A stretch of DNA of 37,824 nt. Source: Polyangiaceae bacterium (GTDB lineage: Bacteria; Myxococcota_A; Polyangia; Polyangiales; Polyangiaceae). A model generated the notes under the pieces. The model made no database searches. It was not told the origin of the DNA and saw nothing but the letters and a program-made list of their open reading frames with translations. The stretch's first letter is position 1. Every line of letters starts with the position of its first letter. The translations under genes and the position numbers were made by a program. The DNA lies in assembly GCA_025937835.1 (NCBI GenBank), contig JAICQO010000068.1, forward strand, positions 1 through 37,824, written 5' to 3'. Below, piece by piece: positions 18,858 through 34,675 of this stretch.

Positions 18858-19529
18858 ATGAACAAAAGCCAAATCCGCGAGCCGGCGCAGATCCTCCGTG
18901 AGCTCGGCCCGTTCTCCGAAGTTCCGAACGTGGGCGGCGTCAGCTTCGACGGCGAACGCGGCTGGTTCGCAGGCGGCAGCAGCTTGCGGGCCTTCGAGCC
19001 GGAAACGGGCGCAGAAGTCGAGCGCCTGAACCTCGCCGCCGACGCCGGCACGGCCTTCGACGGCCGCTATCTGTACCAGGTGACGAGCGACCGCATTCAC
19101 AAGATCGATCCCAAAACCGGCAGCATCGTCGCCAGCATCCCCGCGCCCGGGGGAGGCAAAGATTCCGGGCTCGCCTGGGCCGAAGGCACGCTCTGGGTCG
19201 GCCAGTATCGCGATCGCAAGATCCACCAGATCGATCCCGAGACCGGGAGCATTCTCAGCACCATCGAGTCCGATCGCTTCGTCACCGGAGTCACCTTCTG
19301 CGACGGCGAGCTCTGGCACGGCAGCATGGACGATACCCGGAGCGAGCTCCGGCGCATCGATCGTCAATCGGGCGAGGTGCTCGAGGCGCTCGAGATGCCA
19401 TCCGGGACGATGGTCTCCGGGCTCGAAGCCCGCGGCAGCGACGAGTTCCTGTGCGGAGGTGGCACGAGCGGGAAGGTGCGCGTGGTGCGAAAGCCCAAGC
19501 GCAAGCCTCCCGCGGCGACCAGCCGCTGA
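18858..19529 (+). CDS. Cytosolic beta-propeller protein (streptogramin-lyase/glutamine-cyclotransferase-like fold)
   Basis: Protein of 223 residues without signal peptide, made of repeated propeller blades of about 40 residues. Examples are GGVSFDGERGWFAGGSSLRA, TAFDGRYLYQVTSDRIHKID, LAWAEGTLWVGQYRDRKIHQ and TFCDGELWHGSMDD. The text KIDPKTGSIVASIPAPGGGK followed by QIDPETGSILSTIESD is typical of Vgb-like and glutaminyl-cyclotransferase-like propellers. There are no catalytic residues that I can assign. It starts 9 nt after the regulator stop, so it likely shares the operon and may bind the regulator's ligand. The C-terminus is Lys/Pro-rich. Confidence 0.8.
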   Translation: MNKSQIREPAQILRELGPFSEVPNVGGVSFDGERGWFAGGSSLRAFEPETGAEVERLNLAADAGTAFDGRYLYQVTSDRIHKIDPKTGSIVASIPAPGGGKDSGLAWAEGTLWVGQYRDRKIHQIDPETGSILSTIESDRFVTGVTFCDGELWHGSMDDTRSELRRIDRQSGEVLEALEMPSGTMVSGLEARGSDEFLCGGGTSGKVRVVRKPKRKPPAATSR

Positions 19530-19553: not shown

Positions 19554-19835
19554 TCACGGCGGCACCCCGTACGAGAGGAGGCCCAGAAGCAGCGTCGCGG
19601 CCGAACACAGGCCCCACGCTCGCCATCCGCCTCGAGCCAGAAAGACCAAGCACATCACCGCGACCCAGACGGGGATCGCCAGCGTGAAACCGAGCGTCAG
19701 GCGCGCCCCCTCCGCGAGCGGCAACCGTCGCGCGAGGCAGACCGAGGCGAGTACGGCGAGCGGGAGCGTTCCGACGAGCGCGGCGAGGACACGCAGCGTC
19801 GCGTCGAGGCGACCAGACCAGGCGCGCTCAGTCAC
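19554..19835 (-). CDS. DUF3649-like small membrane protein
   Basis: Protein of 93 residues with three predicted membrane segments (VLAALVGTLPLAVLASVCL, LTLGFTLAIPVWVAVMCLVF, LCSAATLLLGLLSYG). The layout R...ALVG...LP...LP...GWRAW resembles DUF3649, which accompanies PepSY_TM and DUF3325 genes in siderophore-uptake loci of Gram-negative bacteria. The GTG start at 19835 overlaps the TGA of the DUF3325-like gene (GTGA). It is the last gene of the iron operon; its stop lies 24 bp from the convergent propeller gene. The role is unknown; presumably an accessory of the inner-membrane step. Confidence 0.75.
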   Translation of the reverse strand: MTERAWSGRLDATLRVLAALVGTLPLAVLASVCLARRLPLAEGARLTLGFTLAIPVWVAVMCLVFLARGGWRAWGLCSAATLLLGLLSYGVPP

Positions 19836-20161
19836 GGCTTTCCGACGAGAGCAAGAGCCGCGATCAGCAGGGGGCACGCGAGCACGACGCTCCAGAGCGC
19901 CCGCGGGCTGAGCGGCGCCAACAGCACGAAGCTCGTCGCGGCGACGGTGAGGGCCGTGAGTGCGACGAGCAGGGCTTCCACGATACCCCCGGTCCGTGCC
20001 CAAAGCACGACACCCGCGACGGTCGCTCCCGCGGCTGCGACCCGCATGGCGAAAAGCAACCCCCGTGTTGGCTTCCAGCGAGCAGGAAAGCGCCGAGGGT
20101 CCGCGCCGTGAGCGAGCGCGAATGCAAGGTAGAGGGATAGGAGCGCCGCAATCTCCGTCAT
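19832..20161 (-). CDS. DUF3325-like membrane protein
   Basis: Protein of 109 residues with about three transmembrane helices (MTEIAALLSLYLAFALAHG, FAMRVAAAGATVAGVVLWA, ALWSVVLACPLLIAALALVG). The size and position next to PepSY_TM and DUF3649-like genes match DUF3325. ATG 20161 overlaps the TGA of the PepSY gene (ATGA). It acts in the inner membrane with the PepSY protein by inference from conserved neighbourhood; no ligand-binding residue can be named. Confidence 0.78.
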   Translation of the reverse strand: MTEIAALLSLYLAFALAHGADPRRFPARWKPTRGLLFAMRVAAAGATVAGVVLWARTGGIVEALLVALTALTVAATSFVLLAPLSPRALWSVVLACPLLIAALALVGKP

Positions 20162-21771
20162 CGCTGTGTCCCAGGCGACTCGAAGGTGCCGGCGGGCGCG
20201 AGCGCGACGGCGCGTCCGGTCTCCCCGTTGGCCTCTGCTGCTTTGGCTGGCCGAGCCTTGTCCGACTGCTTTGCGCCTCGCCGGAGTGCCACGGCGATTC
20301 CGCACAGCGACAGCGCCGTGACGAGGAGCGCGACGTCGACGCCGGCCACGGCTGGGATGCGCGGACCCGCGCCGAAGAGGCCCGCTTCCGACCAGCGTGC
20401 GGCGAGGACCGGGACCGGGAGAAGCAAGACACCCGCGAGGCCGACACCCTGCCACCAGAGCGCGCGGCGGTCCTCCACCATGCACGCCCAGGCGGCGCAG
20501 AACACGAACACGCTGACGAACACGAAGTCTTCGGTCGAGCCGCGGTCGCGAAGGTCGAAGGGTAGCAGTCGGCTCGTGAGGAACAGCGCGGCAGTGGCGA
20601 CTAGGGTTCCCGCGCCGACGCCTACCGTCAGGCCCGCGAGGAGCAGGTTGCCGGGGCTCTCGCGTCGCGACTCTCTTCGCGCGAGCCAGACGGAATTTCC
20701 GGTCAGGATCGTCGCCGCCGTCGCGAGGGCCAGCACGAAGAACAAGAAGCGTAGCGGAAGACCACCGAACTCGGCGTAATGAAGCCCCCGAACCCAGCGC
20801 CAGGTCGCGCCCATCGCGGTCTCAGCGGCCGGGGAATCGACGTGGAGTACCTTGCCGTCGATCAGACGCATACGGACCGCGCCGTCGGACTCCGGCGTCG
20901 TCCCGTGGAGCGGGCCTTGCACGTCTACGCCGCCGTTGGCGCGCCCTGGGTAGAGAACACGATAGGACTCCGGAGCGAGCCGCGGCTCGACCGCGCGCGC
21001 TCGCGCGGCGAGCTCGTCGAGCGAGAGCACCGCCGCGGGCGCGCCCGCCTTTTCCGTCGACTCTCCGGGCATTCCCCAGAACACGGCCTCGGCGCGCTTC
21101 TCGTCGCCGCCAAAGACAGGTCCCACGAAGGCGCCGAGCAGGAGCGGCGCGAGCACGATCAGCGCGCCCGTGTACGCGTAGAGGAGCTGAAACGGGAGCC
21201 CCATGACGCCGAGCACCTTGTGCATGTCGGACCACAACACGCGCCGCGACTTGTCCGGCCGAAACTGATGGAACTGGCGGACGATGTCCTTCAAATGAAT
21301 GAGCACGCCCGTCACGATCGCGAGCAGCAGGGCCACCGCGAGAAACCCCGACGCGCGATAGAGCCAGTCGCCCGTCACCTCGTGCCAGAGGAAGTGCAGG
21401 TTATAGAGGAAGGCCGTGAGGCGCTCGCGCTCGGGAATCAGCTCCCCCGTGTGCCCGTCGAACCAGAGCTTCTGCCACGAGCCCGTCTTCGGATCTTCGT
21501 ATCCGAGCTGCGCCGCGCCGGTAGCCTTCGGGTAGAACCAGACGCTTTCGGGCCGGGCGGGGAGCTTGGCGAGCGCGCGCTCGAAGAGCGCCTGGTGGGT
21601 ACCGGGCAGAGGAGCCTGCTGGGCGAGCGGTTCTTGCCAGACCTCGAGCTCGTCGTGGAACAGCGTGATCGCGCCGGTCAGGAACATGACGTAAAGGACG
21701 AGCCCTCCGATCACGCCCGCCCAGGCGTGAACGTCCCAGAAGCGGGTGAAGGCGTGGGCAGAGAGCTTCAT
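20158..21771 (-). CDS. PepSY_TM inner-membrane protein, ferric-siderophore reductase-like (XusC/FoxB-like)
   Basis: Inner-membrane protein of 537 residues with about eight transmembrane helices, two PepSY-like periplasmic parts and conserved His near the membrane faces (LFHDELEVW, LYNLHFLWHEVTGD, HLKDIVRQFHQF, WSDMHKVLGVMGLPF). The family includes FoxB, PiuB and Bacteroides XusC, linked to iron release from siderophores, probably by haem-based reduction. It follows three lipoprotein genes by 31 nt and overlaps DUF3325-like by 4 nt. ATG 21771 starts with a typical MKLSAHAFTRFWDVHAWAGVI. Reductase activity is inferred from the family. Confidence 0.92.
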   Translation of the reverse strand: MKLSAHAFTRFWDVHAWAGVIGGLVLYVMFLTGAITLFHDELEVWQEPLAQQAPLPGTHQALFERALAKLPARPESVWFYPKATGAAQLGYEDPKTGSWQKLWFDGHTGELIPERERLTAFLYNLHFLWHEVTGDWLYRASGFLAVALLLAIVTGVLIHLKDIVRQFHQFRPDKSRRVLWSDMHKVLGVMGLPFQLLYAYTGALIVLAPLLLGAFVGPVFGGDEKRAEAVFWGMPGESTEKAGAPAAVLSLDELAARARAVEPRLAPESYRVLYPGRANGGVDVQGPLHGTTPESDGAVRMRLIDGKVLHVDSPAAETAMGATWRWVRGLHYAEFGGLPLRFLFFVLALATAATILTGNSVWLARRESRRESPGNLLLAGLTVGVGAGTLVATAALFLTSRLLPFDLRDRGSTEDFVFVSVFVFCAAWACMVEDRRALWWQGVGLAGVLLLPVPVLAARWSEAGLFGAGPRIPAVAGVDVALLVTALSLCGIAVALRRGAKQSDKARPAKAAEANGETGRAVALAPAGTFESPGTQR

Positions 21772-21802
21772 GCGCCGCGCTCCTCATCCTGGATGCCCGC
21801 TC

Positions 21803-23035
21803 TCATCGGATCCTCGCGACTCCGTGCAGGAACCCCGGCGCAGTCAGGGCGCGACGCGGACCGCCTTCAGCCGTGAGCTCGATCAGCGTGGTCTCGGAGT
21901 AGTCCTCGGTCGTTTCCGTCCCGTAGACCTTCCCGTCGAGTCGGAACCACAGCACGTCCGACGTGGAAGGCTCGAGCGCGTCGACTGGCGACACGTCATA
22001 GGTGCCGGGCGTCCAGCGCAGCCAGCGCCACGCGGACTGGCTGGTGAGCTCCCAGGTGAGCGCGCCGTCCGCGACGGTGCCGAGGCCTTCGTCGAAGACC
22101 CGCAGGAAGATCTCACTGCCACCCCCGGGAACGGGCTCGCCGGCCAGGGCGCTGCCCGTGAGCTCCTCCAGGCTCTCGAGGTAGTCGGCGTCAAAGGCGT
22201 CGTCCCCGGCGCGCACGCGCAGCGCGCACGGTGCCGTGTCCAAGCGATCGAGCCGGTGAGCAGCCGCGGCCAGCGCAGAGCTGACGAAATACACGTCACC
22301 CGAGCTCGTCTCGACCGGCGTGGTGATGCCACCACAACGCGCATCCACTTCGAATTTCGACACCTTCTCCGTTTCGGTGTCGAGCACGACGAGCCCCGTC
22401 TCGCCGAGGATCGAGTCCGTCTCGTTCCAATCGACCCAGGCCACTGAGAAAAGGAGGTCGCTGCCACGCTCGAGGTGGGCGTAGCTGTAGAGCGACAGGA
22501 ACCCCTCTCGCCCGGTCTGGCCGAGGTCGACCTCACCCGTAATCTCCATCGCGCTCGGGTCGATGATGATCAGGCGCTGGCCGTCGCGATCCGGGTAATA
22601 CATCTTCGTGGGCGAAACGACGTAGAGCGTGTCCCACAAGTTCTCGATGCCGTAGTCCTGGAGGCTGATCGTGTCGTCTTCGTCCAGCCGGCCCTCGTCG
22701 TCGAGCGTGTAGCGCGTAATCGTCGGCGCTTCGCCGCCGCCGATCGCGAACCAGCCGACACCCTCGATGGCGTAGAGCTTCGCGGCGCCCGGAACCTCGA
22801 CGGCCCGGGAGGCATCGATCGCAGTGCCTGCTTCGATCGATGACACGACGTGAAAGTAGGAGGTGGTCGACGTGTCGTCCCAGACCCGCGTGCCGAGCAG
22901 GAGGGCGGGTGTCTCGGGGCTGCCGCCGGCACGCTCGTTCGCGTCGTTGCCGCTGCATGCGACCATCGCGGTGGCGGCGATCACTGCCAGTAGCCGAGGC
23001 AGTCGGCCGGTTGATCGAAGCGCTGCTGCTCTCAT
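21803..23035 (-). CDS. XusB/DUF4374-like lipoprotein 1
   Basis: Predicted surface lipoprotein of 410 residues, lipid Cys27 in MVAC. It is one of three tandem paralogues sharing a propeller-like layout: a start with ASRAVEVPGAAKLYAIEG, then TRYTLDDEGRL and ISLQDYGI, the block SPTKMYYPDRDGQRLIIIDP followed by SAMEITGEVDL, a single conserved Cys-Gly turn (VDARCGGITTP), and an ending GFLHGVARIR. This resembles XusB (DUF4374) of Bacteroides, a surface lipoprotein that holds the siderophore for its TonB receptor. The gene is closest to the PepSY gene, 31 nt away. No detectable enzyme motif. The family call rests on operon context and fold pattern, not a search. Confidence 0.75.
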   Translation of the reverse strand: MRAAALRSTGRLPRLLAVIAATAMVACSGNDANERAGGSPETPALLLGTRVWDDTSTTSYFHVVSSIEAGTAIDASRAVEVPGAAKLYAIEGVGWFAIGGGEAPTITRYTLDDEGRLDEDDTISLQDYGIENLWDTLYVVSPTKMYYPDRDGQRLIIIDPSAMEITGEVDLGQTGREGFLSLYSYAHLERGSDLLFSVAWVDWNETDSILGETGLVVLDTETEKVSKFEVDARCGGITTPVETSSGDVYFVSSALAAAAHRLDRLDTAPCALRVRAGDDAFDADYLESLEELTGSALAGEPVPGGGSEIFLRVFDEGLGTVADGALTWELTSQSAWRWLRWTPGTYDVSPVDALEPSTSDVLWFRLDGKVYGTETTEDYSETTLIELTAEGGPRRALTAPGFLHGVARIR

Positions 23036-23046
23036 GGCTCGTCCTC

Positions 23047-24327
23047 CTATCGAATTCGGTAAATCGTCCCGCCGAGCTGCCCCTTGACCGTCATCGCCGG
23101 TCGCAGCTCGCCGCCCGGTGACAACTCCGTGAGCACGGCGTCGCCGTTCGCATCGAGCGTCGTGTTGTCGGCGACGAAGGTTCTCCCCGCGACCGTGAAC
23201 CTGTCCGCGAAGCTCCCGTGCGGGGTCTGTCCGGGGACCTCCGTCGCCGTGCTCGAGTCAAGCTCCCAATACCACCAACGAAACGCCCGCACCGTCGCCC
23301 TGGCCTCCTCGAAGTTCTCCGGGGTGACCTCCTGATCGACGTCCTCGTCATGCCACGCCCGGAGGAACGCAGCGGTGTCGCTCACGACCATCAGATCACC
23401 GGCGACGGGCCGACCGCCGACGAGGTCGCTGAGATCGATGTCGTAGCCCTCGTCGAAGGAGAGTCCCGGCGGGACCACGCGCAGACCACAGGGCGTCGCG
23501 CCAAACTCGGGTCCAAACACGTGCCGCTCGAGTACTCGACCCGTGTCGGCGGTGTAGTAGGCGGTGCCGTCGCTCGTCTGCCCGGCGAGCTGCATCTTCT
23601 CGCACCCGACCCATTCGTCGACGCTGACGACCTCGTCCGTGGCTCTGTCGACGGCAACGAGGCGGCTCCGGTCGGAGTACCGCACGTCGTCGTCCGGGTC
23701 GTTCATGAACGAATTCACGAGCACCGCGTCGTCTCGAACGGTGAGATAGGACATCAGGATCGGCACCAACGTCCCCTCGTTCTCGAGCGGCAGAGGAATG
23801 GTGCCGATGACCTCCATGGCCAATGGATCCCACGTGACCAGCTGCGCGCCGATGTAGTCGGCGAAGTAGGACTTTTCCGGCGATGCGATCGGGGTGAACG
23901 CTACCGACGAGGTGTCCAGCACGCCCAGATCCGCGAAGCTGATCGTGGGCCCCTTCGTGAGGGTCCCGTCCGGCTGGAGCTCCCAGCGCTCGACGGCGGG
24001 CGTCGACCAGAGGCCGACGTAGACGTACGGTTGCCCTTCGATGCCGACCGCGTTCGCTCCGCCCGGGAACTCGATCGCGTTGCGAAGGTCCATCGTTGTC
24101 GGCGCGTCGAGCGATGGGACCAATGCCACGTATCCCGTGATGCCATCCGGATCGAAGACGTTGGTGGAGACGACGTAGAGCGGACCCGTGCTCCCGCCGT
24201 CCGGCGTCGCGTGCCCGTCGTCACCGCTGCCGGCACAGCCAAGCCCGAGCATCGCTGCGATTGCCGCCGATCCGAGATTCGTCGTCATTTGCTTGCTTTT
24301 CCGTAGGTGCTTCATTGCGACGCTCAT
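23047..24327 (-). CDS. XusB/DUF4374-like lipoprotein 2
   Basis: Second tandem paralogue, 426 residues, with lipobox LGLGC (Cys31). It keeps the family layout: LRNAIEFPGGANAVGIEG, ERWELQPDGTL, ISFADLGV, SPEKSYFADYIGAQLVTWDP followed by LAMEVIG, the Cys turn VGCEKMQLAG and the ending LGGTIYRIR. ATG 24327 has a GGAA about 9 nt upstream; an in-frame TTG at 24342 is weaker, and another ATG at 24315 is possible. The three copies are clearly diverged from each other (only scattered identities), so the triplication is not recent. The gene starts 48 nt after the stop of the third copy. Confidence 0.75.
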   Translation of the reverse strand: MSVAMKHLRKSKQMTTNLGSAAIAAMLGLGCAGSGDDGHATPDGGSTGPLYVVSTNVFDPDGITGYVALVPSLDAPTTMDLRNAIEFPGGANAVGIEGQPYVYVGLWSTPAVERWELQPDGTLTKGPTISFADLGVLDTSSVAFTPIASPEKSYFADYIGAQLVTWDPLAMEVIGTIPLPLENEGTLVPILMSYLTVRDDAVLVNSFMNDPDDDVRYSDRSRLVAVDRATDEVVSVDEWVGCEKMQLAGQTSDGTAYYTADTGRVLERHVFGPEFGATPCGLRVVPPGLSFDEGYDIDLSDLVGGRPVAGDLMVVSDTAAFLRAWHDEDVDQEVTPENFEEARATVRAFRWWYWELDSSTATEVPGQTPHGSFADRFTVAGRTFVADNTTLDANGDAVLTELSPGGELRPAMTVKGQLGGTIYRIR

Positions 24328-24375
24328 GCTGTGCCGTTCCAAGTCCTGGATTCTTTCGCGCTTTACAGTCGCGAC

Positions 24376-25656
24376 TCAGTCCACCCGGTAGGCGCGGCCA
24401 GGAAAGCCCGGAAACGAAAGCGCCCGCACCACGTCGCTGCTCCTGGAGACGTCGTAGTAGTTGCCCGCGCTGAAATCGGCTTCGACGGCCACCAGGAAGG
24501 GGTTCCGCACGCCATTCACGACGGTGCTGAACGAGTCACCGTACGCGGTGAAGGAATCGAGGCCCTCGACTGGCCCGAAGCTGCTCGCTTCGTTGCCCAG
24601 CTCGAGGCCGAAGACCCGCCATTCTTCGCCGCGAAGACTGGCCTGCCAGTTGTCCTCCGTGATGGGTTCGCCGTCGTACTGGAACACGTACGCTCGATCG
24701 CCAGCACCCTGGAGTAGCCCGCCGACGACTCCACCGGACAGCTCCGAGAGGTTCACGAAATAGTCCTGGTCGAAGCGGCTCTCCCCTTTCTTGATACGAA
24801 GCAGGCATTGCGGCGGAGGAGAGTCCCCATCCAGGCCCGCCGCCATGTACACGGCATGACCCGGGTGCGAGCCGAGGTAGAGGTTGCCCGCGTCGTCGGT
24901 GACGTTGAACGCGATGTCGCCGCACCGCGTATCTTCGATGTATTCGACCGAATCGTCGCGCGAGTCGACGATCGCTGCACGCACCAGCGGGGTCGTCGTT
25001 CCCTCTTCGAGGTGCCAGTAGCGCGCGGTCACGATGAAGCGCTCTCCGTCGCGGTGAACGAAGTTCATGGCGTGCTCCTGTCCCTGGACGGCCAACCCCT
25101 CGATGCTGAACGAACCCTCGGTCGTCATGCGCACTGGATCGAACACGACGACCTGCAGGTTCTCGTTGTCGAAGTAGTATGCGCGATGCTCGTCGATGAA
25201 CTGCATGACGTTGCGCCCGCCACCGAGAGTCTTGGTCACGCCGAAGTTCGCAAGGCTCACTTGATCCTGCTTCTCGAGCGCGTTGCTCTCGTCGAGGCCC
25301 CAGCGCTCGATGATCGGCGCGTCCTCGCGACCGACGAACACGACGCGCCCTCCCGGCGACGCATAGACCATGTCCCCGCCAAACTCCACGGCGCGCGAAA
25401 GGTCGATGGTTCCATCGCGCGAGAGATCGTCGACGACGGTCAGGTAGCCCGTGTACTCGTCCGCGGTGCTGATCCACCCTCCGACGATCCAGAGCTCCTC
25501 TGCGCTTCGCGGAGGGTTGCCCCCCACAGCGTCGCCGGCCTCTTCTCCCCCGCAGGCCACGGCCGTCAGGGCCATGCATCCGGCGCACAGGTGGGCCAGA
25601 ACTTTCGAGAGCGTGCCAACCGGGTGTGGGTGCTTCCTTGCGATGTTCACGTGCAT
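24376..25656 (-). CDS. XusB/DUF4374-like lipoprotein 3
   Basis: First-transcribed of the three paralogues, 426 residues, lipobox VAC at Cys35 (LTAVACGGEE). Shared blocks are LSRAVEFGGDMVYASPGG, ERWGLDESNALEK, VSLANFGV, DEHRAYYFDNENLQVVVFDP, TRCGDIAFN and the ending GFPGRAYRVD. The start ATG 25656 lies 12 nt after the TonB receptor stop, with GGAAAGG just upstream. By analogy with XusB it would sit on the outer membrane next to the receptor and capture or hand over a ferric siderophore. This is inferred. Confidence 0.75.
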   Translation of the reverse strand: MHVNIARKHPHPVGTLSKVLAHLCAGCMALTAVACGGEEAGDAVGGNPPRSAEELWIVGGWISTADEYTGYLTVVDDLSRDGTIDLSRAVEFGGDMVYASPGGRVVFVGREDAPIIERWGLDESNALEKQDQVSLANFGVTKTLGGGRNVMQFIDEHRAYYFDNENLQVVVFDPVRMTTEGSFSIEGLAVQGQEHAMNFVHRDGERFIVTARYWHLEEGTTTPLVRAAIVDSRDDSVEYIEDTRCGDIAFNVTDDAGNLYLGSHPGHAVYMAAGLDGDSPPPQCLLRIKKGESRFDQDYFVNLSELSGGVVGGLLQGAGDRAYVFQYDGEPITEDNWQASLRGEEWRVFGLELGNEASSFGPVEGLDSFTAYGDSFSTVVNGVRNPFLVAVEADFSAGNYYDVSRSSDVVRALSFPGFPGRAYRVD

Positions 25657-25668
25657 GCCTTTCCGGAG

Positions 25669-28455
25669 TCAGAGCTCCGCCGTCGTCTTGATGTAGAAGG
25701 CCCTTCCCGGGCGCTGAACGCCGAAGAAATCGAAGACCTTCTCGTCGGTGACGTTCTGCACCTCGAGCGTCGAGCTGACCGTCGCGTGGTCGTTCTCGAC
25801 GAGGTACCCGAGCCCGACCGTGTGGACGAGCTGCGAGTCGATGGTCTGCTTGAACTCGCGCAGGCCGATGCTCTCCCAGCCGCGGAAGTACTCGTGCACG
25901 TAGCGGGACGTCCAGCTGAGCGCGACCTCGTCGCGCGGGGCGACGACGCTGCGGAATTGGAGCCGCGCCGAGCCGTTGGCGAAGAGATAAGGGCGATTCG
26001 GGATGCGGTCGCCGTCGAAGTCGCCGAAAGTGCCCGCGCTCGAGGAGTTACGGAAGTCCTGATAGGTCGCGTTGGCGTCGAGGACCAAGTACTCGCGGGG
26101 TGACGTCCAGCCGAGCGCCGCTTCTACCCCGAGGGATCGTGCGCCGAAGACGTTCTGGTAGCTCTGCACGCGATCGTTGCCGAGCAGCACGATGAGCCGA
26201 TCGGCGTCGCGCAGGAAGCCGTTGAGGCCTGCGCGCAGCTCTCCCAGCCGCGTTTCGCGAGCATCGACGGTGAAACCGAGGTTCGCGTTGTGGCTCGTCT
26301 CGGGCTCGAGCTCGAGATTGGCGATGATGAACGCGTTGTCCCCGAAGATCTCGTCAGGGCGCGGGAGGCGCGTGGCGTATTCGTAGGAGGCCTTGGCGTA
26401 GAGCCAAGGCGTGAAGCGGAACCGAAGCGCATCCCCGAAGCCGAAGCGGTGCGTGTCGCGATCGCGGCGGCGGAAGATGCCTCCTGGGCGCGGTTCTTCG
26501 CTCGCGAGCAGCTGCAGGTACTGCTTGGCGAACAGGATGTTCTCCAGGCGGTCGCGGAGGAGATCGAGCTCGTATTCGAGGCCGTTCACGAGCGTCGTGA
26601 GCTCCCTCTCGGCGGTCAGTGGGTCGCGCGCGCCCGGGTTGCTTTGCCGCCGCTCGTCGCCGGTGCGCGTCAGGTAGGTGGGAGCGAGGGAGAGCCGCAG
26701 CGCGTGTTGGGGATGGACGCGCCATTCGAGCTTCACGCGACCGAACGCCGAATGATCCCAGTAGACCTGGTCGTGCGGGCGCGAGTCGGTCTCTCCCGGG
26801 GTGCGGCGCTCGCGCACGCAGCGCCCGAACCAATCGTAGACGCAGCCGGCGACGTCGAGAAAGTCGCCACGGAGGTACGTGTAGCCGCCAAGGACGTCTA
26901 CCGTGACTCCGTGCCCGAGCGGCTGCTCGTAGCGCAGGCTCGCGCCCGTGGCGGTCTCGCCGTACGTCACGCCGCCATACGGGACCGTCATCACGACGTT
27001 GTGCTGGTACTCCTTGTCGTAGTGCGTGACGAAGGCGCGCAAGAGGAGCCGCCTCGCCCAGGGCCGATGGGCGAGCCCGATCTCGGCGTTGCCGCCCGCG
27101 GCGCGGTAACCGTCGTGGAAGCGGTAGGCTCGCGCTGGTGAGAGACGCCCGCGCTCGTCCGGAACCTCCACGTTCACCGGGTAATCGTTTCGCGCGTAGT
27201 CGAAGAAGCCGCTGACCCGCGTGAAGAAGCCGCTCGGTTCGTGGAGATTCCGTGCGCTCAGCGTGAGGCGATGCGTGTCGAACGAGCCGGCCTCGTAGGA
27301 GGCACCGGCGTGCGTGCCGCGCAAGTCTTGGTTGGTGACGAGGTTGACGGCGCCGCCGAGCGCGTCGCCGCCGAAGCGGATCGGGACGACGCCGCTGTAG
27401 ATCTCGACGCGCTCGACGAGGTTTACGGGGACGTTGGCGACGCCGAACGGGTAGCCCGCGAGCTCGAGCGGCACGCCGTCGAGGAAGAACCGGACTTGCT
27501 CGTCGGTGAGGCCGTTCAGCGAGAAGCGCGCGCTCGAACCGAGCCCGCCGCCACGGCGAACGCCGACCCCCTGAGTGCGCGCGAGCACTTCGCCCAGGTC
27601 CGCGCTCTCGCGCTTCGCGCGCTCCGTTTCGACTACGGTGACGGCCTCGGCGGATTGACGCCGGCGGTCGGCCTCGGAAGTTCCGCGGACGGTCACCTCA
27701 ATCGGCGTCTGCGCCGCGGCAGGCTCGAGGCGCGCCGTGATGCGGGCGCCCTGACCTGAAACGACTTCAGCTTGAAGCTCGACTTGGCCGAGCTCGGGCG
27801 CGCGCGTCGTGACGACGTAGGCGCCGGGAGCGAGCGCCTCGAACCGGAAGCGTCCGTGCTCGTCGGTCCGCGTCGTCGCCGTCGCTCCATCGGACGCACG
27901 CACGACGATCTCGACGCCGGCAGCACCACCATCGCCGCTTCCGGGAAGGAGCAGCCGGCCCTCCAGGCTCCCCGTCGCGGGCGCCTGGGGTAGTCGGAAC
28001 TCGACGCGGACCAGGACCCGCGACGCGACCTCGGTGTCGCCGCGGCGCGCAGGGCGGTAACGCGCGCGAAGCACGGCGGCCCGCGCCGCCTCGTCGAAGC
28101 CGTGGCCCACAGGCTCCATCACCTCGGCCTCCGTAACGTTGCCCTCGGCGTCGATGCTGACGCGAAGCGCGACGGTCGCTTCGAGGCGAGCTGCGGCCGC
28201 CTCGCGGGGATATTCGAGCTGAAAGGCCTCGAGCGGCTCGGGCATGTGGGCATCCGGGGGCGGGCCGTCACTTTCAGCGGGCGGAGCAGAGTCACTCGGA
28301 GCGTCCGCGGGCGGCTCTTCGCTCCGGGGCTGCGTGGCACCGGGCTCGGGTGGCGCGTCACCGGGGCCCGCATCCTGAGCCTGCGCCGCTGCGCAGAGGA
28401 CGAAGGTGCAGACGGCGGCTGCGGCCGCAAGGAATGACGAGCTCGGTTCGGACAT
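25669..28455 (-). CDS. TonB-dependent receptor with N-terminal TonB-like domain
   Basis: Outer-membrane siderophore-type receptor of 928 residues. In order: signal peptide to about residue 25; a Pro/Ala/Glu-rich linker to about 70; a TonB C-terminal-like domain at about 72-156 (YPREAAAARLEATVALRVSI, then FDEAARAAVLRARYRPARRG); a carboxypeptidase-regulatory/CnaB-like beta domain at about 162-247 (GSLEGRLLLPG, then TDEHGRFRFEALAPGAYVV); a possible TonB box near PIEVTVRG (251-258); a plug at about 265-375 (LARTQGVGVR, FFLDGVPLELAGYPFG, RVEIYSGVVPIRFGGDALGG); then the beta-barrel. Carrying a TonB-like domain inside the receptor itself is unusual. It is the first large gene of the Fur-controlled operon. 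The ATG 28455 is supported by GGTGAG about 8 nt upstream. Confidence 0.93.
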   Translation of the reverse strand: MSEPSSSFLAAAAAVCTFVLCAAAQAQDAGPGDAPPEPGATQPRSEEPPADAPSDSAPPAESDGPPPDAHMPEPLEAFQLEYPREAAAARLEATVALRVSIDAEGNVTEAEVMEPVGHGFDEAARAAVLRARYRPARRGDTEVASRVLVRVEFRLPQAPATGSLEGRLLLPGSGDGGAAGVEIVVRASDGATATTRTDEHGRFRFEALAPGAYVVTTRAPELGQVELQAEVVSGQGARITARLEPAAAQTPIEVTVRGTSEADRRRQSAEAVTVVETERAKRESADLGEVLARTQGVGVRRGGGLGSSARFSLNGLTDEQVRFFLDGVPLELAGYPFGVANVPVNLVERVEIYSGVVPIRFGGDALGGAVNLVTNQDLRGTHAGASYEAGSFDTHRLTLSARNLHEPSGFFTRVSGFFDYARNDYPVNVEVPDERGRLSPARAYRFHDGYRAAGGNAEIGLAHRPWARRLLLRAFVTHYDKEYQHNVVMTVPYGGVTYGETATGASLRYEQPLGHGVTVDVLGGYTYLRGDFLDVAGCVYDWFGRCVRERRTPGETDSRPHDQVYWDHSAFGRVKLEWRVHPQHALRLSLAPTYLTRTGDERRQSNPGARDPLTAERELTTLVNGLEYELDLLRDRLENILFAKQYLQLLASEEPRPGGIFRRRDRDTHRFGFGDALRFRFTPWLYAKASYEYATRLPRPDEIFGDNAFIIANLELEPETSHNANLGFTVDARETRLGELRAGLNGFLRDADRLIVLLGNDRVQSYQNVFGARSLGVEAALGWTSPREYLVLDANATYQDFRNSSSAGTFGDFDGDRIPNRPYLFANGSARLQFRSVVAPRDEVALSWTSRYVHEYFRGWESIGLREFKQTIDSQLVHTVGLGYLVENDHATVSSTLEVQNVTDEKVFDFFGVQRPGRAFYIKTTAEL

Positions 28456-28761: not shown

Positions 28762-28790
28762 TTGATACTGCAAGTGATAATCATTTTCAA
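28762..28790 (-). promoter_or_regulatory. Sigma70-like promoter of the iron operon
   Basis: On the minus strand TTGAAA (plus coordinates 28785-28790) and TATCAA (28762-28767) are spaced by exactly 17 nt, a good vegetative promoter shape (5/6 and 4/6 to consensus). It points at the TonB receptor gene, giving a leader of about 300 nt. The Fur box overlaps its -35 and spacer. Confidence 0.65.
28775..28789 (-). promoter_or_regulatory. Fur box
   Basis: TGATAATCATTTTCA (plus strand) is a 7-1-7 dyad matching the Fur consensus TGATAATnATTATCA at all but one defined position. It is AT-rich in a GC-rich region and sits across the -35/spacer of the promoter, where iron-loaded Fur would block RNA polymerase. 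This predicts repression when iron is plentiful. A regulator identity other than Fur within the Fur family cannot be excluded. Confidence 0.8.
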
Positions 28791-28891: not shown

Positions 28892-30172
28892 TCAGGAGAG
28901 CAGCGCGCGGCGGCACGGGTCGATCACGGTGGTCTGAATTTGCAGCGCGAGCGCCGCGCGAGCCGCGTGGCCGAGGCGGCCGTGAGTCGCGAGTGGGTCG
29001 TCGTGCCCCGCTGCGCTGCAGGTCGTCGAGCGGGGCGAGGCCTCGAAGGCGCGTTCGACGGCAGCGCGCACGGGAAGGCTGCCCGTCGCCATTGCCCACT
29101 GGACGAAGGCCCAAGCGAGCTCGGCGTGACGCAGCTCGTCTTCGGCGATCGCCGCGAGCAGCCCGGCGAGTGCCGGGTCGTGCGCGAGACGCGCCTGTTC
29201 CGCGGCGATGGCCGCCGCGACCGTCTCACCGACGCACCCCTCCCGGACGACCAGCGCTGCGATATCTGCCAGGTCTTCGCCTCCAAACACGCCGCCGAGG
29301 GGCAGGGGACCGGGCTCGAGCTCGGCGCCTGCGTAGCGGCTCGCTAGCTCGAAGCAGAGCGCCGCATGCTGGATCTCGTCACCGATCGCGGCCTGCGCGC
29401 GTTCGACGAGCGAGCGCGGCGCACCGAGCGACAAGAGCTGGAGCACGAAGCGCGCGAAGGCAGCGACCGAAGCGTGCTCCAAACGCGCGTCCTCGAGCCA
29501 GCCCTCTGCCAGCGCCGCACGGGTGTGAGCGTCGAGCCCCGTCGGATCGATCGCGCGCAGAGCGCCGCGCCAGCCCGCTCCGCGCCGGACCGGTGCAACG
29601 CGAGCCTCGCCGTCAATCAAGAAGGGACGTCCGCAACAGGTGCCCGAAGTCACGTTGTAACAACACAAGCCGTTCTTCTCCGTCGGCGGCTCGTTGATCC
29701 AACCGCACGTCCAATTCGCCTTGAACACCGGACACGCGAGCCCGGTCGCCCCGCCGTCACCGCCCGCGCCTGCGCCTCCGACATCCCCCGAGTCGCCCGC
29801 GGAACCGAGCATGGCCGCCGGAAACGTCTCGGCGACTTTTTCTGGCGCAACGCACATGTTGCGGGTGCAGCAAACGCCGACGCCACTGTCGTGGCAGTTC
29901 GAAGGCAGGCTTCCTCCCGTCCCGATACCAGGACCCCCCGAAGTCGCGCCACCGGTGGTCGGCGGGTTCGTAGCGCCACCCGTGGACGGCGGTTGATTCG
30001 GGCGCCCGCCAGGCGTGGTAGGCGAACCGCCCGTCGGAGCGCTGGTTGTGCCACCTGTGCCAGAGGCGGGCGAGTCTGACGTCGACTGTCCGCCGCACGA
30101 GGCGCCGGCGACCAACCCAGACGCCAATACCCCGAGGATCCTCTCGATCAGCCGGCTGTTCACGCTGCACAT
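28892..30172 (-). CDS. Lipoprotein with ferritin-like domain
   Basis: Predicted lipoprotein of 426 residues, lipobox GASC (Cys26). A long Gly/Ser/Thr/Pro stalk (to about 95) is followed by a Cys-rich segment to about 185 (NCHDSGVGVCCTRNMC, LCCYNVTSGTCCGRP). The C-terminal half is a helical ferritin-like bundle with plausible di-iron ligands: LEHAS, GDEIQHA (ExxH), the helix AAAIAAEQARLA and EDELRHAELAW (ExxH). Ferritin-like proteins use such a site for oxidase, peroxidase or iron storage; an exported, surface-tethered version is unusual. It follows the response regulator by 47 nt on the same strand, so it could be part of that operon. Confidence 0.82.
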   Translation of the reverse strand: MCSVNSRLIERILGVLASGLVAGASCGGQSTSDSPASGTGGTTSAPTGGSPTTPGGRPNQPPSTGGATNPPTTGGATSGGPGIGTGGSLPSNCHDSGVGVCCTRNMCVAPEKVAETFPAAMLGSAGDSGDVGGAGAGGDGGATGLACPVFKANWTCGWINEPPTEKNGLCCYNVTSGTCCGRPFLIDGEARVAPVRRGAGWRGALRAIDPTGLDAHTRAALAEGWLEDARLEHASVAAFARFVLQLLSLGAPRSLVERAQAAIGDEIQHAALCFELASRYAGAELEPGPLPLGGVFGGEDLADIAALVVREGCVGETVAAAIAAEQARLAHDPALAGLLAAIAEDELRHAELAWAFVQWAMATGSLPVRAAVERAFEASPRSTTCSAAGHDDPLATHGRLGHAARAALALQIQTTVIDPCRRALLS

Positions 30173-30219: not shown

Positions 30220-30810
30220 CTACCTCGGGAACAACAGGCGCAAGAACTCCGCCCGGTTTGCCACGCCGCACTTGGCGTAAATTTGGCTGATGTGCTGGCG
30301 GATGGTGCGCGGGCTGTTGTGCTCGAGCTCGGCGATTTCGCTGCCCGAGAGGCCGTCGAACAGGTGCCGCGCGACGGTGCGCTCTTTCTCGGTGAGCTCG
30401 GCGCGCTCGAACAGGCGTTGAATGGCGGCCTCCGCGCCCCGGCCCGCCTGGCGAACGCGCTCGATCGCCGCGAGCAGCTCTTCGGCTGAAAACGGCTTCT
30501 CCAGGAAGAAGGCGGCACCCTGGTTCAGCGCCGTTTTGACTCGGTGCACGTCGGCAAAAGCGGTGATCACGATCACCGGCGCGTGAACGCCCAGGGCGTG
30601 GAGCTCGGTCATGAGCTTCAGCCCAGCGAGGTCGTCCGCTCCCAACACGATGTCGGTGATCACCACGTCGAGCTCTGCAGTTCGCGCGAGGGACAGCGCA
30701 GCTTCGGCCCCGGCCGCCGTCAACGTGCGAAAGCCGGCTCGGTCGAGGGCACGGGCGAGCAGCTCGCGCGTGTCGTCCTCGTCTTCGACCAATAGCAGCG
30801 TGGCGGTCAT
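30220..30810 (-). CDS. Response regulator, receiver plus LuxR-type HTH
   Basis: Cytoplasmic response regulator of 196 residues. The receiver domain (about 1-120) has the acidic pair (EDED at 9-12), phospho-acceptor Asp53 in VITDIVLG, Thr in VIVITAF and Lys in FFLEKPF. The C-terminal domain is LuxR/NarL-type HTH (LTEKERTVARHLFDGLSGSEIAELEHNSPRT, in part), here with ISQIYAKCGVANRAEFLRLL. ATG 30810 overlaps the TGA of the kinase gene (ATGA). Its partner is the upstream histidine kinase. Targets may be the divergent lipoprotein-receptor-pqq region; this is inferred from position. Confidence 0.93.
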   Translation of the reverse strand: MTATLLLVEDEDDTRELLARALDRAGFRTLTAAGAEAALSLARTAELDVVITDIVLGADDLAGLKLMTELHALGVHAPVIVITAFADVHRVKTALNQGAAFFLEKPFSAEELLAAIERVRQAGRGAEAAIQRLFERAELTEKERTVARHLFDGLSGSEIAELEHNSPRTIRQHISQIYAKCGVANRAEFLRLLFPR

Positions 30811-31739
30811 CGGCCTCCGAGCGGGAGCTCGAGGCGAAAATGTTCGTCTGCGTCGAGGCTGAGCTCGCCGCGCATGGCTCGCGACAGCGCGCGCGCGATC
30901 GGCAGGCCCAGGCCGAGGCCGTGGGTCTTGGTGGAGCGCAGCGGGTCGAACAGCGTCGCGGCGATCTCCGGGGCGAGGCCGGGGCCGTCGTCACCGATGC
31001 GGATCACCGCCTTCGAATCCGTCGCCGCCAGCGAGACGCGGACCGTGCCGCCCTGGTCCGACAACGAATGTAGGCTGTTTTCGAGCAGATTTTCCAGGAT
31101 GGTGCGCAGGTAGGTCGGGTCGGCCACGGCCTCAATCGAGCCGGAGGATTCGAGCTCGAAGTGAACCTCGTGTGGCGAGCCGAGCGTCGTCATCTCTTCG
31201 AGCAGCGGCGAAAGGAACGTCTCGAGTCGCAAGCGCTGGAAATCGGGGTCACCGAGGCTCTTCAGCCCGCGCAGGGCGCCGAGCCGTGACAGCGCTTTCC
31301 CGATCTGCGCTCGCGCCCGCGCGTCGAGATCGGCCCGGCGCGCGGCGTCCGTCTCTTTCGATTGTTCGTCGAGCAAGAGGCCCAGCGCGTGCAGCGGGTT
31401 GTTCAGCTCGTGCAGCACGGCCGCGATCACCACCCACACCGCCTGATCGCGCTCGATCTTTTGAAGCCGAATCCTGAGCGCTTCGGCGCGGCTCGCTGCT
31501 TCTTCCGCGGCGGCGAGGCGCGACGTGAGGCGAAGTTGGTAGAGACACAAACCGAGCAACCCTCCGGCGAGGATGGGGAAGCTCTGGTCGATCAGCTGGT
31601 GCGCGTTGGCGAAGCCGCCGATCAGCGTGCCCGACGCGAGGCGCTGCTCGGCGGCCTTGTCGAACACGACGTAGATCACACCGAGCACGAGCCCGATCAG
31701 CACGAACAGGAAGAGCTGCGGGTCCTTGCGGCGCTTCAC
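30807..31739 (-). CDS. Membrane sensor histidine kinase
   Basis: Sensor kinase of 310 residues. Two transmembrane helices (about 9-26 and 55-70) enclose a short periplasmic loop of about 28 residues, so there is hardly room for a periplasmic sensing domain. A coiled-coil-like linker (RLAAAEEAASRAEALRIRLQ) precedes the H box LHELNNPLHALGLL with His110. The N box (LENLLENSLHSL), G1 (GDDGPG), F-like (LFDPLRSTKTHGLGLGL) and catalytic ATPase domain follow. The HELNNPL form is typical of NtrB/PAS-class HPK4 kinases. It is the first gene of a minus-strand unit and starts 107 bp from the divergent lipoprotein gene. Confidence 0.94.
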   Translation of the reverse strand: MKRRKDPQLFLFVLIGLVLGVIYVVFDKAAEQRLASGTLIGGFANAHQLIDQSFPILAGGLLGLCLYQLRLTSRLAAAEEAASRAEALRIRLQKIERDQAVWVVIAAVLHELNNPLHALGLLLDEQSKETDAARRADLDARARAQIGKALSRLGALRGLKSLGDPDFQRLRLETFLSPLLEEMTTLGSPHEVHFELESSGSIEAVADPTYLRTILENLLENSLHSLSDQGGTVRVSLAATDSKAVIRIGDDGPGLAPEIAATLFDPLRSTKTHGLGLGLPIARALSRAMRGELSLDADEHFRLELPLGGR

Positions 31740-31845: not shown

Positions 31846-32292
31846 ATGCGCATTTCCGCGATAATTGTCCGATCCGTGATCTTGGCTCTGGCGCTCTCCA
31901 GCATCGCTTGCAGCGACGACGAGGGGAGCGAGGACGCGTGCACGCCCGACGACCTCGACGGCGTGATTGGCGGCGACGTCACCTTCGAGGTAACCCTCGG
32001 CGACGACGCGTTCAGCCCCCGGATCCTGACCGCGCAGAACCGAGCCCTCGTGACCCTGACTCTGACCAACGACTCGAGCGAAGCGCGCGGGTTCTACGTG
32101 GAGTGCTTGCAGACCCCGAACGACGACGGCTGCCCCACCGAGTCGTGTTTTCCCGACGAGGCTCGGATCGACCCGATCGAGCCCGGTGAGTCGGCGACCA
32201 CGGAGTTCGAGGTCCCGCTCGTCGAGGGCGCGTACACGATCGTTTCGGCTCCCGGGGAGACGGAACCGAGCGCGCAGTTCATCGTCAAGTGA
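31846..32292 (+). CDS. Cupredoxin-like lipoprotein
   Basis: Predicted lipoprotein of 148 residues with lipid Cys22 (SIAC). The mature part looks like a single cupredoxin-type beta-sandwich: VTFEVTLGDDAFSPRILTAQ, ALVTLTLTNDSSEARGF, then IEPGESATTEFEVPLVEGAY. The His/Cys/Met copper ligands of classical cupredoxins are not evident; instead there is a CX8CX4C pattern (Cys in VECLQTP, DDGCPT and ESCFP) and a Cys at 32. It may bind a metal through Cys or form disulfides. Its stop overlaps the GTG of the TonB receptor by 4 nt (GTGA), so the two are coupled. Confidence 0.75.
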   Translation: MRISAIIVRSVILALALSSIACSDDEGSEDACTPDDLDGVIGGDVTFEVTLGDDAFSPRILTAQNRALVTLTLTNDSSEARGFYVECLQTPNDDGCPTESCFPDEARIDPIEPGESATTEFEVPLVEGAYTIVSAPGETEPSAQFIVK

Positions 32293-34394
32293 ACGGACAC
32301 GCGCTCCGGCTCGGCTTCGCATGGTGCCTGTGGTGCGTGCGGGCAGCGGCCGAGCCGAGCCCGAGCCCGAGCGTGGAGGTGCGCGGCGAACGCCCGGGCG
32401 AGCGGCGTGGCGTCTTCGATCTGGAGCTCGACCGCGAGCTCTTGCAGCTCTCGCCGCGCTTTCAGACCAGCGAGCTGCTGTCGGCCGCGCCCGGTTTTTT
32501 CGTCGATCACGAGGACGGGGAGGGGCTCGGAAACGACGTGTATTTGCGGGGTTTCGACCTGTCGCACGGCTCCGGCATCGAGATGCGCGTCGGGCTCGTG
32601 CCGATCAATTCGCCCGTGCACGTGCGGGGTCAAGGCTACGCCGACGTCAACTTCGTGATCCCCGAGGTCGTGAGCTCGGTGCGCGTCTCGGAGGGCAGCT
32701 ACGACCCACGCCAGGGTGACGCCGCGATCGTCGGGAGCGCGCGCTTCGAGCTCGGTGTCGCCGAGCGCGGCGCGCTCGCAAAGTTTTCCTACGGTTCGTT
32801 CAATCAGCAGCGGCTCGTGGGGCTCGTCGCGCCCGAGGGCCTGGACGAGAAGAGCTTCGCGGCCGTCGCGTTGCGCCGCACCGACGGCTTCGGCGAACGG
32901 CGCGAGGCGCGCTCGGGCACCGTCAACGCGCAGTCCGTGCTCGACCTCGGCTCGGCCGGCACGCTGACGCTGCTCGGCATGGCTTACGGCGCGCGCGCCA
33001 GCTTGCCCGGCGTCGTGCGAGAGGACGACGTCGACGCCGGTCGCATCGGTTTCTACGACTCTTACCCGTTTTACGCTGAAAATCAGTCCTTGCGCACGGG
33101 GCGCGTGCTTTTATCGGCGGAGTTTCGCCACCAGGGGCCGCGCGGCTCGGAGCTCGTGCTCGCGCCGTTCTTTCAGTGGAGCGACTTGCGCGCACGCGAG
33201 AACTACGCTGGCGTGCTCGAAGTGTCGGAGCTCGACCCTTCGGTGTTCGCGCAGGGCGACCTGTTCGAGACCCGCAACATCGAGAGCGCGCTCGGTCTGA
33301 CGGCATACTACGCGAGCGAGCCGCTGCGCGTCGGCGAGCAGAGCGCGATCCGCGTCGAGCCGGGGCTCTATTTGCGAGCCGGCGAAGGCGAACAGACGAA
33401 GTCGCTGCTCCGTCCGGAGGATGCATCGCCGTGGGATCGCCGTCTCGACGCGGACGTGAGCACGCTCGACGTCGGCGCCTATCTGGACTTGATCTGGATT
33501 CTGTCGCCGAAATGGACCTTGTCCGGCGGCGCACGCGCCGATCTCCTGCTCGCGGGGGTGTCCGATCATCTGGCTGGTTTGCGGCCGAATTCGCGCGACA
33601 CCGCGCAACCGGAACGCAACGTGGGCGGCGTCGCCGTCAGTCCGCGCGCGACCCTCGCCTACGAACCGAGCGAGGGCTTCACGCTGCAAGGCTCGTACGG
33701 AGAAGGCTTTCGCTCGCTCCCGGTGCCGTATCTGCGAGACGGCATGAGTCACCCCTACTCGAAGGTGCGCTCGGCGGAGCTCGGCATCACCACCGAGGCG
33801 GCCGAGGGGCGCTTCGAATCGCGGCTCGCGCTCTTCAACACCTGGGTCGAGAACGAGATGGTATTCGTCGCCGAAGAGGGAGGCCTCGACACCCAGCATC
33901 GGAGCGTGCGGCGCGGGCTGGTTGGTTCGTTCGTGCTCCGGCCGAGCAAGTGGCTCCTGGCGTCGACGGCGTTGTCGGTGACGGACGCCGTCTACCGCAC
34001 CCGAGTCGCGGGTATTTCGCACCGCGTGCCGAACGTCCCGCCGCTGCTGCTGCGAGCGGACCTCGGCGTGCGGGGGCAGGCAACGCGCGGCCGCGTCGTG
34101 CTCTTCGGGTGGAGATTCGGCCTGGGCTACACCTTTCTGTCAGGCCAGCATTTGTCGGATCTAGTCGTGGGCCCGGCGACGCACGCGCTCAACGCCTCGT
34201 TCGCGGTCCGCCCAGGCCCGTTCGAGCTCGGGCTCGACGTGTACGATCTGCTCGGGCGCAAGAACGCGGATCGCGCGGACTATTACGTGTCGAACTGGAG
34301 CCTCGAGCCGGGCCAGCAAGCGGCATCGCTCGCATCGCACCTGACGGCCGCGCCGCCTCGCACCGTGATCGCCTCGGCGACCGCCTACTTTTGA
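32289..34394 (+). CDS. TonB-dependent outer-membrane receptor linked to pqq
   Basis: Outer-membrane TonB-dependent receptor of 701 residues. Signal peptide to about 21 (RAAA|EPSPS), then the plug (about 45-155) with ELLSAAPGFFVDHEDGEG, DVYLRGFDLSHGSGIEMRVG, VRGQGYADVNFVIPEVV and ARFELG, then the beta-barrel ending in a C-terminal Phe (ATAYF). The plug lacks the common RGP.SALYG form and is of the GQGYADVNF type. The substrate is not readable. Its place between a cupredoxin-like lipoprotein and pqqABCDE suggests import of a metal or of PQQ itself; PQQ-transporting receptors (PqqU) and lanthanide receptors exist, but I see no sequence proof that this is one. The GTG start at 32289 overlaps the previous stop. 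Confidence 0.92.
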   Translation: MNGHALRLGFAWCLWCVRAAAEPSPSPSVEVRGERPGERRGVFDLELDRELLQLSPRFQTSELLSAAPGFFVDHEDGEGLGNDVYLRGFDLSHGSGIEMRVGLVPINSPVHVRGQGYADVNFVIPEVVSSVRVSEGSYDPRQGDAAIVGSARFELGVAERGALAKFSYGSFNQQRLVGLVAPEGLDEKSFAAVALRRTDGFGERREARSGTVNAQSVLDLGSAGTLTLLGMAYGARASLPGVVREDDVDAGRIGFYDSYPFYAENQSLRTGRVLLSAEFRHQGPRGSELVLAPFFQWSDLRARENYAGVLEVSELDPSVFAQGDLFETRNIESALGLTAYYASEPLRVGEQSAIRVEPGLYLRAGEGEQTKSLLRPEDASPWDRRLDADVSTLDVGAYLDLIWILSPKWTLSGGARADLLLAGVSDHLAGLRPNSRDTAQPERNVGGVAVSPRATLAYEPSEGFTLQGSYGEGFRSLPVPYLRDGMSHPYSKVRSAELGITTEAAEGRFESRLALFNTWVENEMVFVAEEGGLDTQHRSVRRGLVGSFVLRPSKWLLASTALSVTDAVYRTRVAGISHRVPNVPPLLLRADLGVRGQATRGRVVLFGWRFGLGYTFLSGQHLSDLVVGPATHALNASFAVRPGPFELGLDVYDLLGRKNADRADYYVSNWSLEPGQQAASLASHLTAAPPRTVIASATAYF

Positions 34395-34399
34395 TGCGG

Positions 34400-34434
34400 A
34401 ATTGCCGCACCGTGCGCGAGGTGCGGCAATTTTT
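34400..34434 (+). terminator. Intrinsic terminator after the TonB receptor gene
   Basis: AATTGCCGCAC (34400-34410) pairs perfectly with GTGCGGCAATT (34421-34431) across a 10-nt loop, followed by TTT. It begins 5 nt after the receptor stop codon. This 11-bp stem with a T-run is the best terminator in the window and separates the lipoprotein-receptor unit from pqqA. Confidence 0.85.
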
Positions 34435-34521
34435 CCGCGGACTTACACAGTCGTTCGGCTTGACGCGCTAGCGCTCGCGTGGAACACCAAACCGCACCAC
34501 CCTGTCTTGAGGAGCCACCGA

Positions 34522-34617
34522 ATGACCTGGGAAATCCCCGCCTTCGTCGAGATCGAAATGAACGCCGAGATCGGTTCGTATCAAGAAGACTTCGACAACG
34601 GCAACGAAGGCATCTGA
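34522..34617 (+). CDS. pqqA: PQQ precursor peptide PqqA
   Basis: 31-residue precursor of pyrroloquinoline quinone. It starts MTWEIPAFVEIEMNAEIGSY and contains the conserved Glu16 and Tyr20 (ExxxY) that PqqE cross-links. Typical PqqA peptides are about 23-24 residues; this one has an 11-residue acidic tail after Tyr20. GAGGAG lies about 8 nt upstream. In the 87 bp after the receptor terminator a TTGACG (34460-34465) overlapping the palindrome GCGCTAGCGC (34465-34474) is the likely promoter region. It is followed 58 nt later by pqqB. Confidence 0.95.
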   Translation: MTWEIPAFVEIEMNAEIGSYQEDFDNGNEGI

Positions 34618-34632
34618 GCGGCGTCGCCCGCT

Positions 34633-34647: not shown

Positions 34648-34675
34648 GTCTGATTTCAAATAGGAGGCGCGTCGT

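Follow-up and report, generated by a model that had tools for sequence, protein, structure and literature searches.

The operon and its Fur-box-like site

The stretch of DNA analysed here (the window) comprises 37824 nucleotides of contig JAICQO010000068.1 from a Polyangiaceae bacterium (GenBank assembly GCA_025937835.1). Seven open reading frames on its minus strand, running from 28455 to 19554, form an operon for a putative ferric-siderophore importer, in which a TonB-dependent receptor is followed by three lipoproteins (LP1, LP2 and LP3), a PepSY_TM protein, a DUF3325-like protein and a last small membrane protein (Table 1). All seven were confirmed at their positions. An earlier note, made from the sequence, had described seven unidirectional genes with gaps of at most 48 nt, and the open reading frames bear this out. 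The spacers measure 12 nt (receptor–LP1), 11 nt (LP2–LP3) and 31 nt (LP3–PepSY); that between LP1 and LP2 is 48 nt with the ATG start at 24327 and 33 nt with a TTG start at 24342. The PepSY and DUF3325-like genes overlap by 4 nt, as do the DUF3325-like and last genes.

Upstream of the receptor lies a Fur-box-like palindrome, TGAAAATGATTATCA, which differs from the 15 bp palindrome TGATAATNATTATCA at one position. The number expected by chance in the window is 0, and the shuffled window gave none. Across the 6.9 Mb draft genome three distinct sites have two or fewer mismatches, and this one ranks first; the reversed-pattern control gave one site. The same 15-mer precedes a receptor–lipoprotein locus in another genome (L079), and similar Fur-like boxes were found upstream of MxcG or receptor genes in L057, L061 and L070.

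Table 1. Genes of the operon, in order of transcription, and the upstream palindrome.
Feature	Position	Strand	Length	Remarks
Fur-box-like palindrome	28775..28789	.		TGAAAATGATTATCA; 320 nt upstream of receptor start codon
MxcH-type TonB-dependent receptor	25669..28455	-	928 aa	TonB_C 79-155, CarboxypepD_reg 177-244, then plug and barrel
LP1, XusB-like lipoprotein	24376..25656	-	426 aa	lipobox AVAC
LP2, XusB-like lipoprotein	23047..24327	-	426 aa	lipobox GLGC; alternative TTG start 24342
LP3, XusB-like lipoprotein	21803..23035	-	410 aa	lipobox MVAC
PepSY_TM inner-membrane protein	20158..21771	-	537 aa	PF03929, E 1e-53
DUF3325-like small membrane protein	19832..20161	-	109 aa	DUF3325, E 0.2
Last small membrane protein	19554..19835	-	93 aa	no Pfam family

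Sequence and predicted fold of the lipoproteins

LP1, LP2 and LP3 each carry a lipobox cysteine, which is also kept by nearly all of the 44 family members collected in Myxococcota. The earlier note had called them paralogous, and they are true homologues: the pairings LP1–LP2, LP1–LP3 and LP2–LP3 span BLASTP E-values of 1e-17, 4e-29 and 2e-31, with mutual identities of 24–27%. The blocks that it quoted as shared (KMYYPDRDGQ, KSYFADYIGAQ and RAYYFDNENLQ) fall at a single position of the alignment. A cysteine pair, C245/C284, is kept in 42 of the 44 members and is probably a disulphide.

The likeness to XusB, also proposed in the earlier note, emerged most clearly from a profile built from the 44 members. 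This profile matched Bacteroides fragilis XusB over its full length at E 2.3e-18, other DUF4374/XusB structures at about 1e-10 and BtuG-type propellers at only about 1e-4. LP1 alone matched XusB at E 0.067. Taken singly, 15 of the 44 members matched DUF4374 at E ≤0.01 (best 2e-9). B. fragilis XusB is colinear with the myxobacterial profile, unlike the solved DUF4374 group represented by PDB entries 9gbc and 9hq1, which aligns to it in circularly permuted form (219-315 to 156-252 and 37-74 to 349-385).

AlphaFold2 models of LP2 and LP3, for which the three window lipoproteins were the only input, had predicted local distance difference test (pLDDT) values of 78 and 71, respectively. XusB was the top PDB match for both models by Foldseek as well as by VIA-align, with a VIA Z of 27.9 for LP3 (root-mean-square deviation 4.1 over 349 residues) and 26.7 for LP2 (3.7 over 351 residues). 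BtuG was the next fold family (Z 23.0 for LP3 and 21.7 for LP2). On these models LP2 and LP3 are predicted to have the XusB propeller fold, to which LP1 may be assigned through its homology to them. Enzyme-type propellers were rejected as candidates, as amine dehydrogenases and nitrous oxide reductases reached a Z of about 20, i.e. 6–8 below XusB.

The catecholate subtype of XusB (Bt/Bv XusB) is recognized by a hook loop, some 15 residues long, in either blade 2 or blade 4. At the level of the profile alignment, the myxobacterial family is colinear with the hookless B. fragilis XusB and has no hook-sized insertion. The myxobacterial family does not conserve the ferrichrome site of B. fragilis XusB, and prediction of the ligand by transferring XusB residues was rejected for that reason. 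The divergence of the three lipoproteins, for example at the position of L93 in B. fragilis XusB, read from the profile alignment as G in LP3, E in LP1 and W in LP2, lends limited support to their having different pockets.

The receptor

Against the NCBIfam model of the myxochelin receptor MxcH (NF038079) the window receptor scored 1242.9 bits, with a cut-off of 925, which places it by sequence in the MxcH family. The TonB_C domain at the N-terminus of an outer-membrane receptor belongs to this family model; some relatives (about 715 aa) are without it. The closest relative found is a receptor from a Polyangiaceae metagenome-assembled genome (L031), at 69% identity. A contig scan with the receptor as query gave four loci, two of them remote. 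No mxc biosynthesis genes were found adjoining the operon, in a draft assembly that leaves linkage beyond the contig ends possible.

The PepSY protein and the small membrane proteins

The assignment of the fifth gene to PepSY_TM, made in the earlier note, was upheld by Pfam. Four histidines of this protein (H15, H126, H184 and H331) are invariant in 24 of 24 relatives and would fit the haem ligands of ferric-siderophore reductases; haem-ligating histidines have been described in HiuB and FoxB (PDB entry 7ABW; PMC13001220). The match of the window protein to 7abw is weak (E 0.0018). From its sequence, the PepSY_TM protein is likely to be a reductase of the XusC/HiuB/FoxB type.

The next gene had been labelled DUF3325-like, and this label is weakly supported in the window protein and somewhat better in a relative from the same operon type (L082, E 1e-4). 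In the G026 operon L070 the protein is found at the corresponding position. Stenotrophomonas likewise has PepSY and DUF3325 genes side by side (PMC6240677), and Caulobacter needs both HiuC, a small inner-membrane protein, and the PepSY partner of HiuC to use ferrioxamine (PMC13001220). The DUF3325-like protein is a possible partner of the PepSY reductase. The last small membrane protein recurs next to PepSY genes in relatives; the label DUF3649-like given to it in the earlier note was dropped, there being no Pfam match to DUF3649 in the window protein or in the scanned relatives.

Distribution in Myxococcota and linkage to siderophore synthesis

XusB-like lipoproteins (E ≤1e-15) were found in at least 21 of 379 sampled Myxococcota genomes, a lower bound as four candidates were scored per genome. 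Neighbourhoods were recorded for 58 lipoprotein genes, which were gathered by similarity to the window and do not give population frequencies. An MxcH-type receptor lies within 3 kb in 38 of the 58, a PepSY gene in 30 and both in 20. An operon type that combines MxcH receptor, lipoprotein, PepSY protein and small membrane proteins recurs in myxobacteria. What the earlier note had taken for a new variant is new in part: the gene set recurs, but among the 58 genes only the window has three diverged lipoproteins, all in one direction, with a single receptor. Lipoproteins side by side do occur elsewhere, in three other loci, which all belong to G071 and G086 and have mixed orientations.

The family is repeatedly found beside genes for catecholate synthesis. 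Genes for dihydroxybenzoate (DHB)-AMP ligases are near lipoprotein loci in G021, G026, G027, G071 and G086. In G026 and G021 an MxcG synthetase scoring over the cut-off (2546 and 2567 bits, respectively) adjoins MxcH and the lipoprotein, and in the G026 and G086 clusters a short PepSY_TM-like gene comes after the lipoprotein. A full MxcG match was present in six of the 379 genomes, a draw independent of the lipoprotein, and all six have a family lipoprotein within about 5 kb of MxcG; these six represent two genera only and not six independent events, and in two of them (G071 and G086) MxcG is below the curated cut-off. G026, beyond these six, is a seventh genome with a lipoprotein near MxcG. 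Since the lipoprotein is near MxcG in all six MxcG genomes, it is probable that self-made catecholates, too, are among what the family serves to take up.

The host genome of the window has, on the 6.4 kb contig C33, an isochorismate synthase, a DHB-AMP ligase, an isochorismatase-like protein, a DHB dehydrogenase and an MxcK-like exporter (431 bits; cut-off 525). MxcG-like matches on contig C31 reached 431 bits, against 2300, within a large multi-module cluster and were rejected as a myxochelin synthetase. Two more family lipoproteins are encoded on contigs C9 and C150. On C9 (L048, 9453-11431) a fourth XusB-like lipoprotein, shortened by the contig end, is followed by a short PepSY_TM-like gene; it adjoins genes that by inspection resemble type VI secretion parts (Hcp-like and TssM-like). 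Contig C150 (L049, 4581-8077) has a fifth lipoprotein ahead of a second MxcH-like receptor, which scores 918 bits, just under the cut-off, and is without TonB_C; a NorB-type nitric oxide reductase gene lies upstream.

Origin of the three lipoproteins

The lipoprotein tree places LP3 with lipoproteins of MxcH/PepSY loci in G026, G027, G071 and G086, and LP1 with lipoproteins adjoining other MxcH receptors in G005, G006 and G009. LP2 sits on a long branch as the sister of the LP1 lineage (support 94/89). The receptor tree puts the receptor of the window close to those of L071 and L070, whose partner is an LP3-type lipoprotein, so that LP3 and the receptor have relatives in common. Several deep branches of the trees are weakly supported. 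A recent tandem duplication, which the wording of a triplicated lipoprotein in the earlier note would suggest, was rejected on the low mutual identity and the separate tree positions; by their sequences LP1–LP3 appear to be old, separately placed paralogues. The G026 locus L070 has a matching architecture with a single lipoprotein. The simplest history would be an ancestral operon of receptor, LP3, PepSY and small proteins into which LP1 and LP2 were recruited later.

Neighbouring genes

A response regulator and histidine kinase pair is encoded upstream of the operon (30220-31739, minus strand), and a 426-aa protein that lies between this pair and the operon (28892-30172) had no Pfam match. 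A glutamine-cyclotransferase/PQQ-repeat-like, propeller-like protein on the opposite strand (18858-19529, plus) ends 24 nt from the last gene of the operon, and a lactonase-type lipoprotein that is also propeller-like lies at 7119-8633 (minus). The region 32289-37681 (plus) encodes a second TonB-dependent receptor (32289-34394), followed directly by pqqB, which scores over the curated cut-off, pqqC (TENA/PqqC family) and a radical SAM/SPASM PqqE-like gene. In G021, homologues of pqqB/C/E that are 40–49% identical to those of the window adjoin the myxochelin cluster. A link between pqq genes and siderophore loci was not used: of the eight genomes with pqqB, only that of the window and G021 have the two close together, and the other six have no close link.

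Comparison with known systems

The set of receptor, lipoprotein and PepSY protein resembles XusABC, as the earlier note had stated. In XusABC of Bacteroides (BT_2065-2063), and with the B. fragilis XusB homologue, a receptor, a propeller lipoprotein and a PepSY inner-membrane protein likewise share one operon. The likeness extends to the XusB fold, the carboxypeptidase-like N-terminal domain of the receptor, the lipobox cysteines and control by iron starvation (a Fur-like box here; induction shown there, PMC13142918). The window differs in having three diverged lipoproteins where XusABC has one, a further two small membrane proteins and an MxcH-type receptor with an added N-terminal TonB_C domain; the myxobacterial family differs in its conserved C245/C284 pair and in its link to siderophore synthesis in relatives. 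With MxcH and the myxochelin cluster of myxobacteria the window shares its receptor, which scores over the NF038079 cut-off, and lipoprotein and PepSY-like genes are found in myxochelin clusters of relatives as well, whereas the window locus is without adjoining biosynthesis genes, a partial DHB/MxcK-like cluster being on contig C33.

HiuABC of Caulobacter crescentus is similar in comprising a Fur-regulated receptor, a PepSY reductase and a small inner-membrane protein (PMC13001220), but hiuABC lacks a capture lipoprotein and HiuA is FhuA-related and takes hydroxamates. Proteobacterial PepSY–DUF3325 loci, as in Stenotrophomonas (PMC6240677), share that gene pair with the window. BtuBG also has a propeller lipoprotein as a lid on a TonB-dependent receptor and is the second-best fold match; its ligand (vitamin B12) and sequence family are different.

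Proposed mechanism and alternatives

We propose that the operon encodes a Fur-regulated, XusABC-like ferric-siderophore importer with an MxcH-family receptor, three lipoproteins as alternative lids for capture and iron reduction by the PepSY protein, and give this reading a probability of about two in three. Under iron starvation LP1, LP2 and LP3, each a seven-bladed propeller at the cell surface, would capture ferric siderophores. By analogy to XusAB, for which the lid mechanism has been described along with the role of XusC (PMC13142918), the loaded lipoprotein would close on the receptor as a lid, receptor loops would dislodge the ligand and TonB would drive import. Any one of the three lipoproteins, whose pockets would differ, would serve as the lid of this one TonB-driven receptor. 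In the periplasm the PepSY_TM protein, aided by one or both small membrane proteins, would reduce Fe(III) and free Fe(II). LP3 would be the ancestral partner of the receptor, and LP1 and LP2, recruited from another lipoprotein lineage, would most likely widen the ligand set to myxochelin-type catecholates that the cell makes itself, to related catecholates or to siderophores of other organisms. Surface exposure, docking of all three lipoproteins on this receptor, the identity of the ligands and the reductase step are what we infer here. The fuller version, in which three interchangeable, ligand-specialized lipoproteins let one receptor take up the cell's own catecholate as well as siderophores from elsewhere, and in which myxobacterial myxochelin uptake has XusB-type capture as an integral part, is put forward tentatively.

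Several observations weigh against this proposal. Relatives of LP1 adjoin other receptors, and LP1 might serve a different partner. Downstream of the closest relative of the receptor, in L031, 10 kb are without a lipoprotein gene. The ferrichrome-contacting W235 of B. fragilis XusB falls in a stretch that is missing from the myxobacterial family (profile alignment compared with PMC13142918). MxcG was not found in the draft genome of the window. Finally, of the DUF4374/XusB assignment in the earlier note, the XusB profile and fold hold and the Pfam DUF4374 gathering cut-off of 25 bits is not reached, LP1 scoring 16.5 (E 0.004) and LP3 16.8 (E 0.003), with no DUF4374 match for LP2 in the Pfam scan.

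The placement of LP1 and LP2 also bears on a rather unlikely alternative, in which LP3 alone lids this receptor. LP1 and LP2 would then be depots of siderophore, either released or carried on vesicles, or would lid further MxcH receptors of the genome, such as that on C150. This alternative would account for the common relatives of LP3 and the receptor, the other lineage of LP1 and LP2, the LP1 orthologues that adjoin other MxcH receptors in convergent orientation and the second MxcH receptor of the host genome; surplus XusB is, moreover, thought to enter vesicles in Bacteroides (PMC13142918). However, LP1 and LP2 sit between the receptor and LP3 in a unidirectional operon, which favours a shared partner.

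Slightly less likely is that the locus is dedicated to xenosiderophore piracy and plays no part in the use of self-made siderophores. The close mechanistic parallel to XusABC, the missing MxcG and the ferrichrome-binding XusB as nearest structural relative would suit it, but the receptor belongs to the MxcH family, members of this lipoprotein family are kept within the myxochelin cluster of relatives and the host genome has DHB synthesis genes and an MxcK-like exporter. The xenosiderophore role suggested by the earlier note is on these grounds not established. That the propellers bind, as BtuG does, vitamin B12 or some other ligand is highly improbable: although BtuG comes second among the fold families (Z 22–23), XusB leads by about 5 Z units in both models and by about 14 orders of magnitude in profile E-value, and the PepSY partner, the Fur box and the siderophore-synthesis linkage indicate iron.

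Significance

In the searchable literature, XusB-type capture lipoproteins have so far been characterized only in gut Bacteroidota, as tools for stealing siderophores. In the open-access literature that was searched, DUF4374 appears only in work on Bacteroidota, and nothing there joins XusB with myxobacteria. Here, XusB-like lipoproteins were found across Myxococcota, next to myxochelin receptors and inside myxochelin biosynthesis clusters; because of this setting, lipoprotein-assisted siderophore uptake would be older or more mobile than that literature implies and is probably not confined to piracy. Hookless XusB proteins have been proposed to prefer hydroxamates (PMC13142918); by contrast, the myxobacterial family, which looks hookless, is linked to the synthesis of catecholates. 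The DUF4374 family would gain a second phylum and a likely ligand class, and the three-lipoprotein operon makes lid swapping testable as a route by which the ligand range of a receptor may change.

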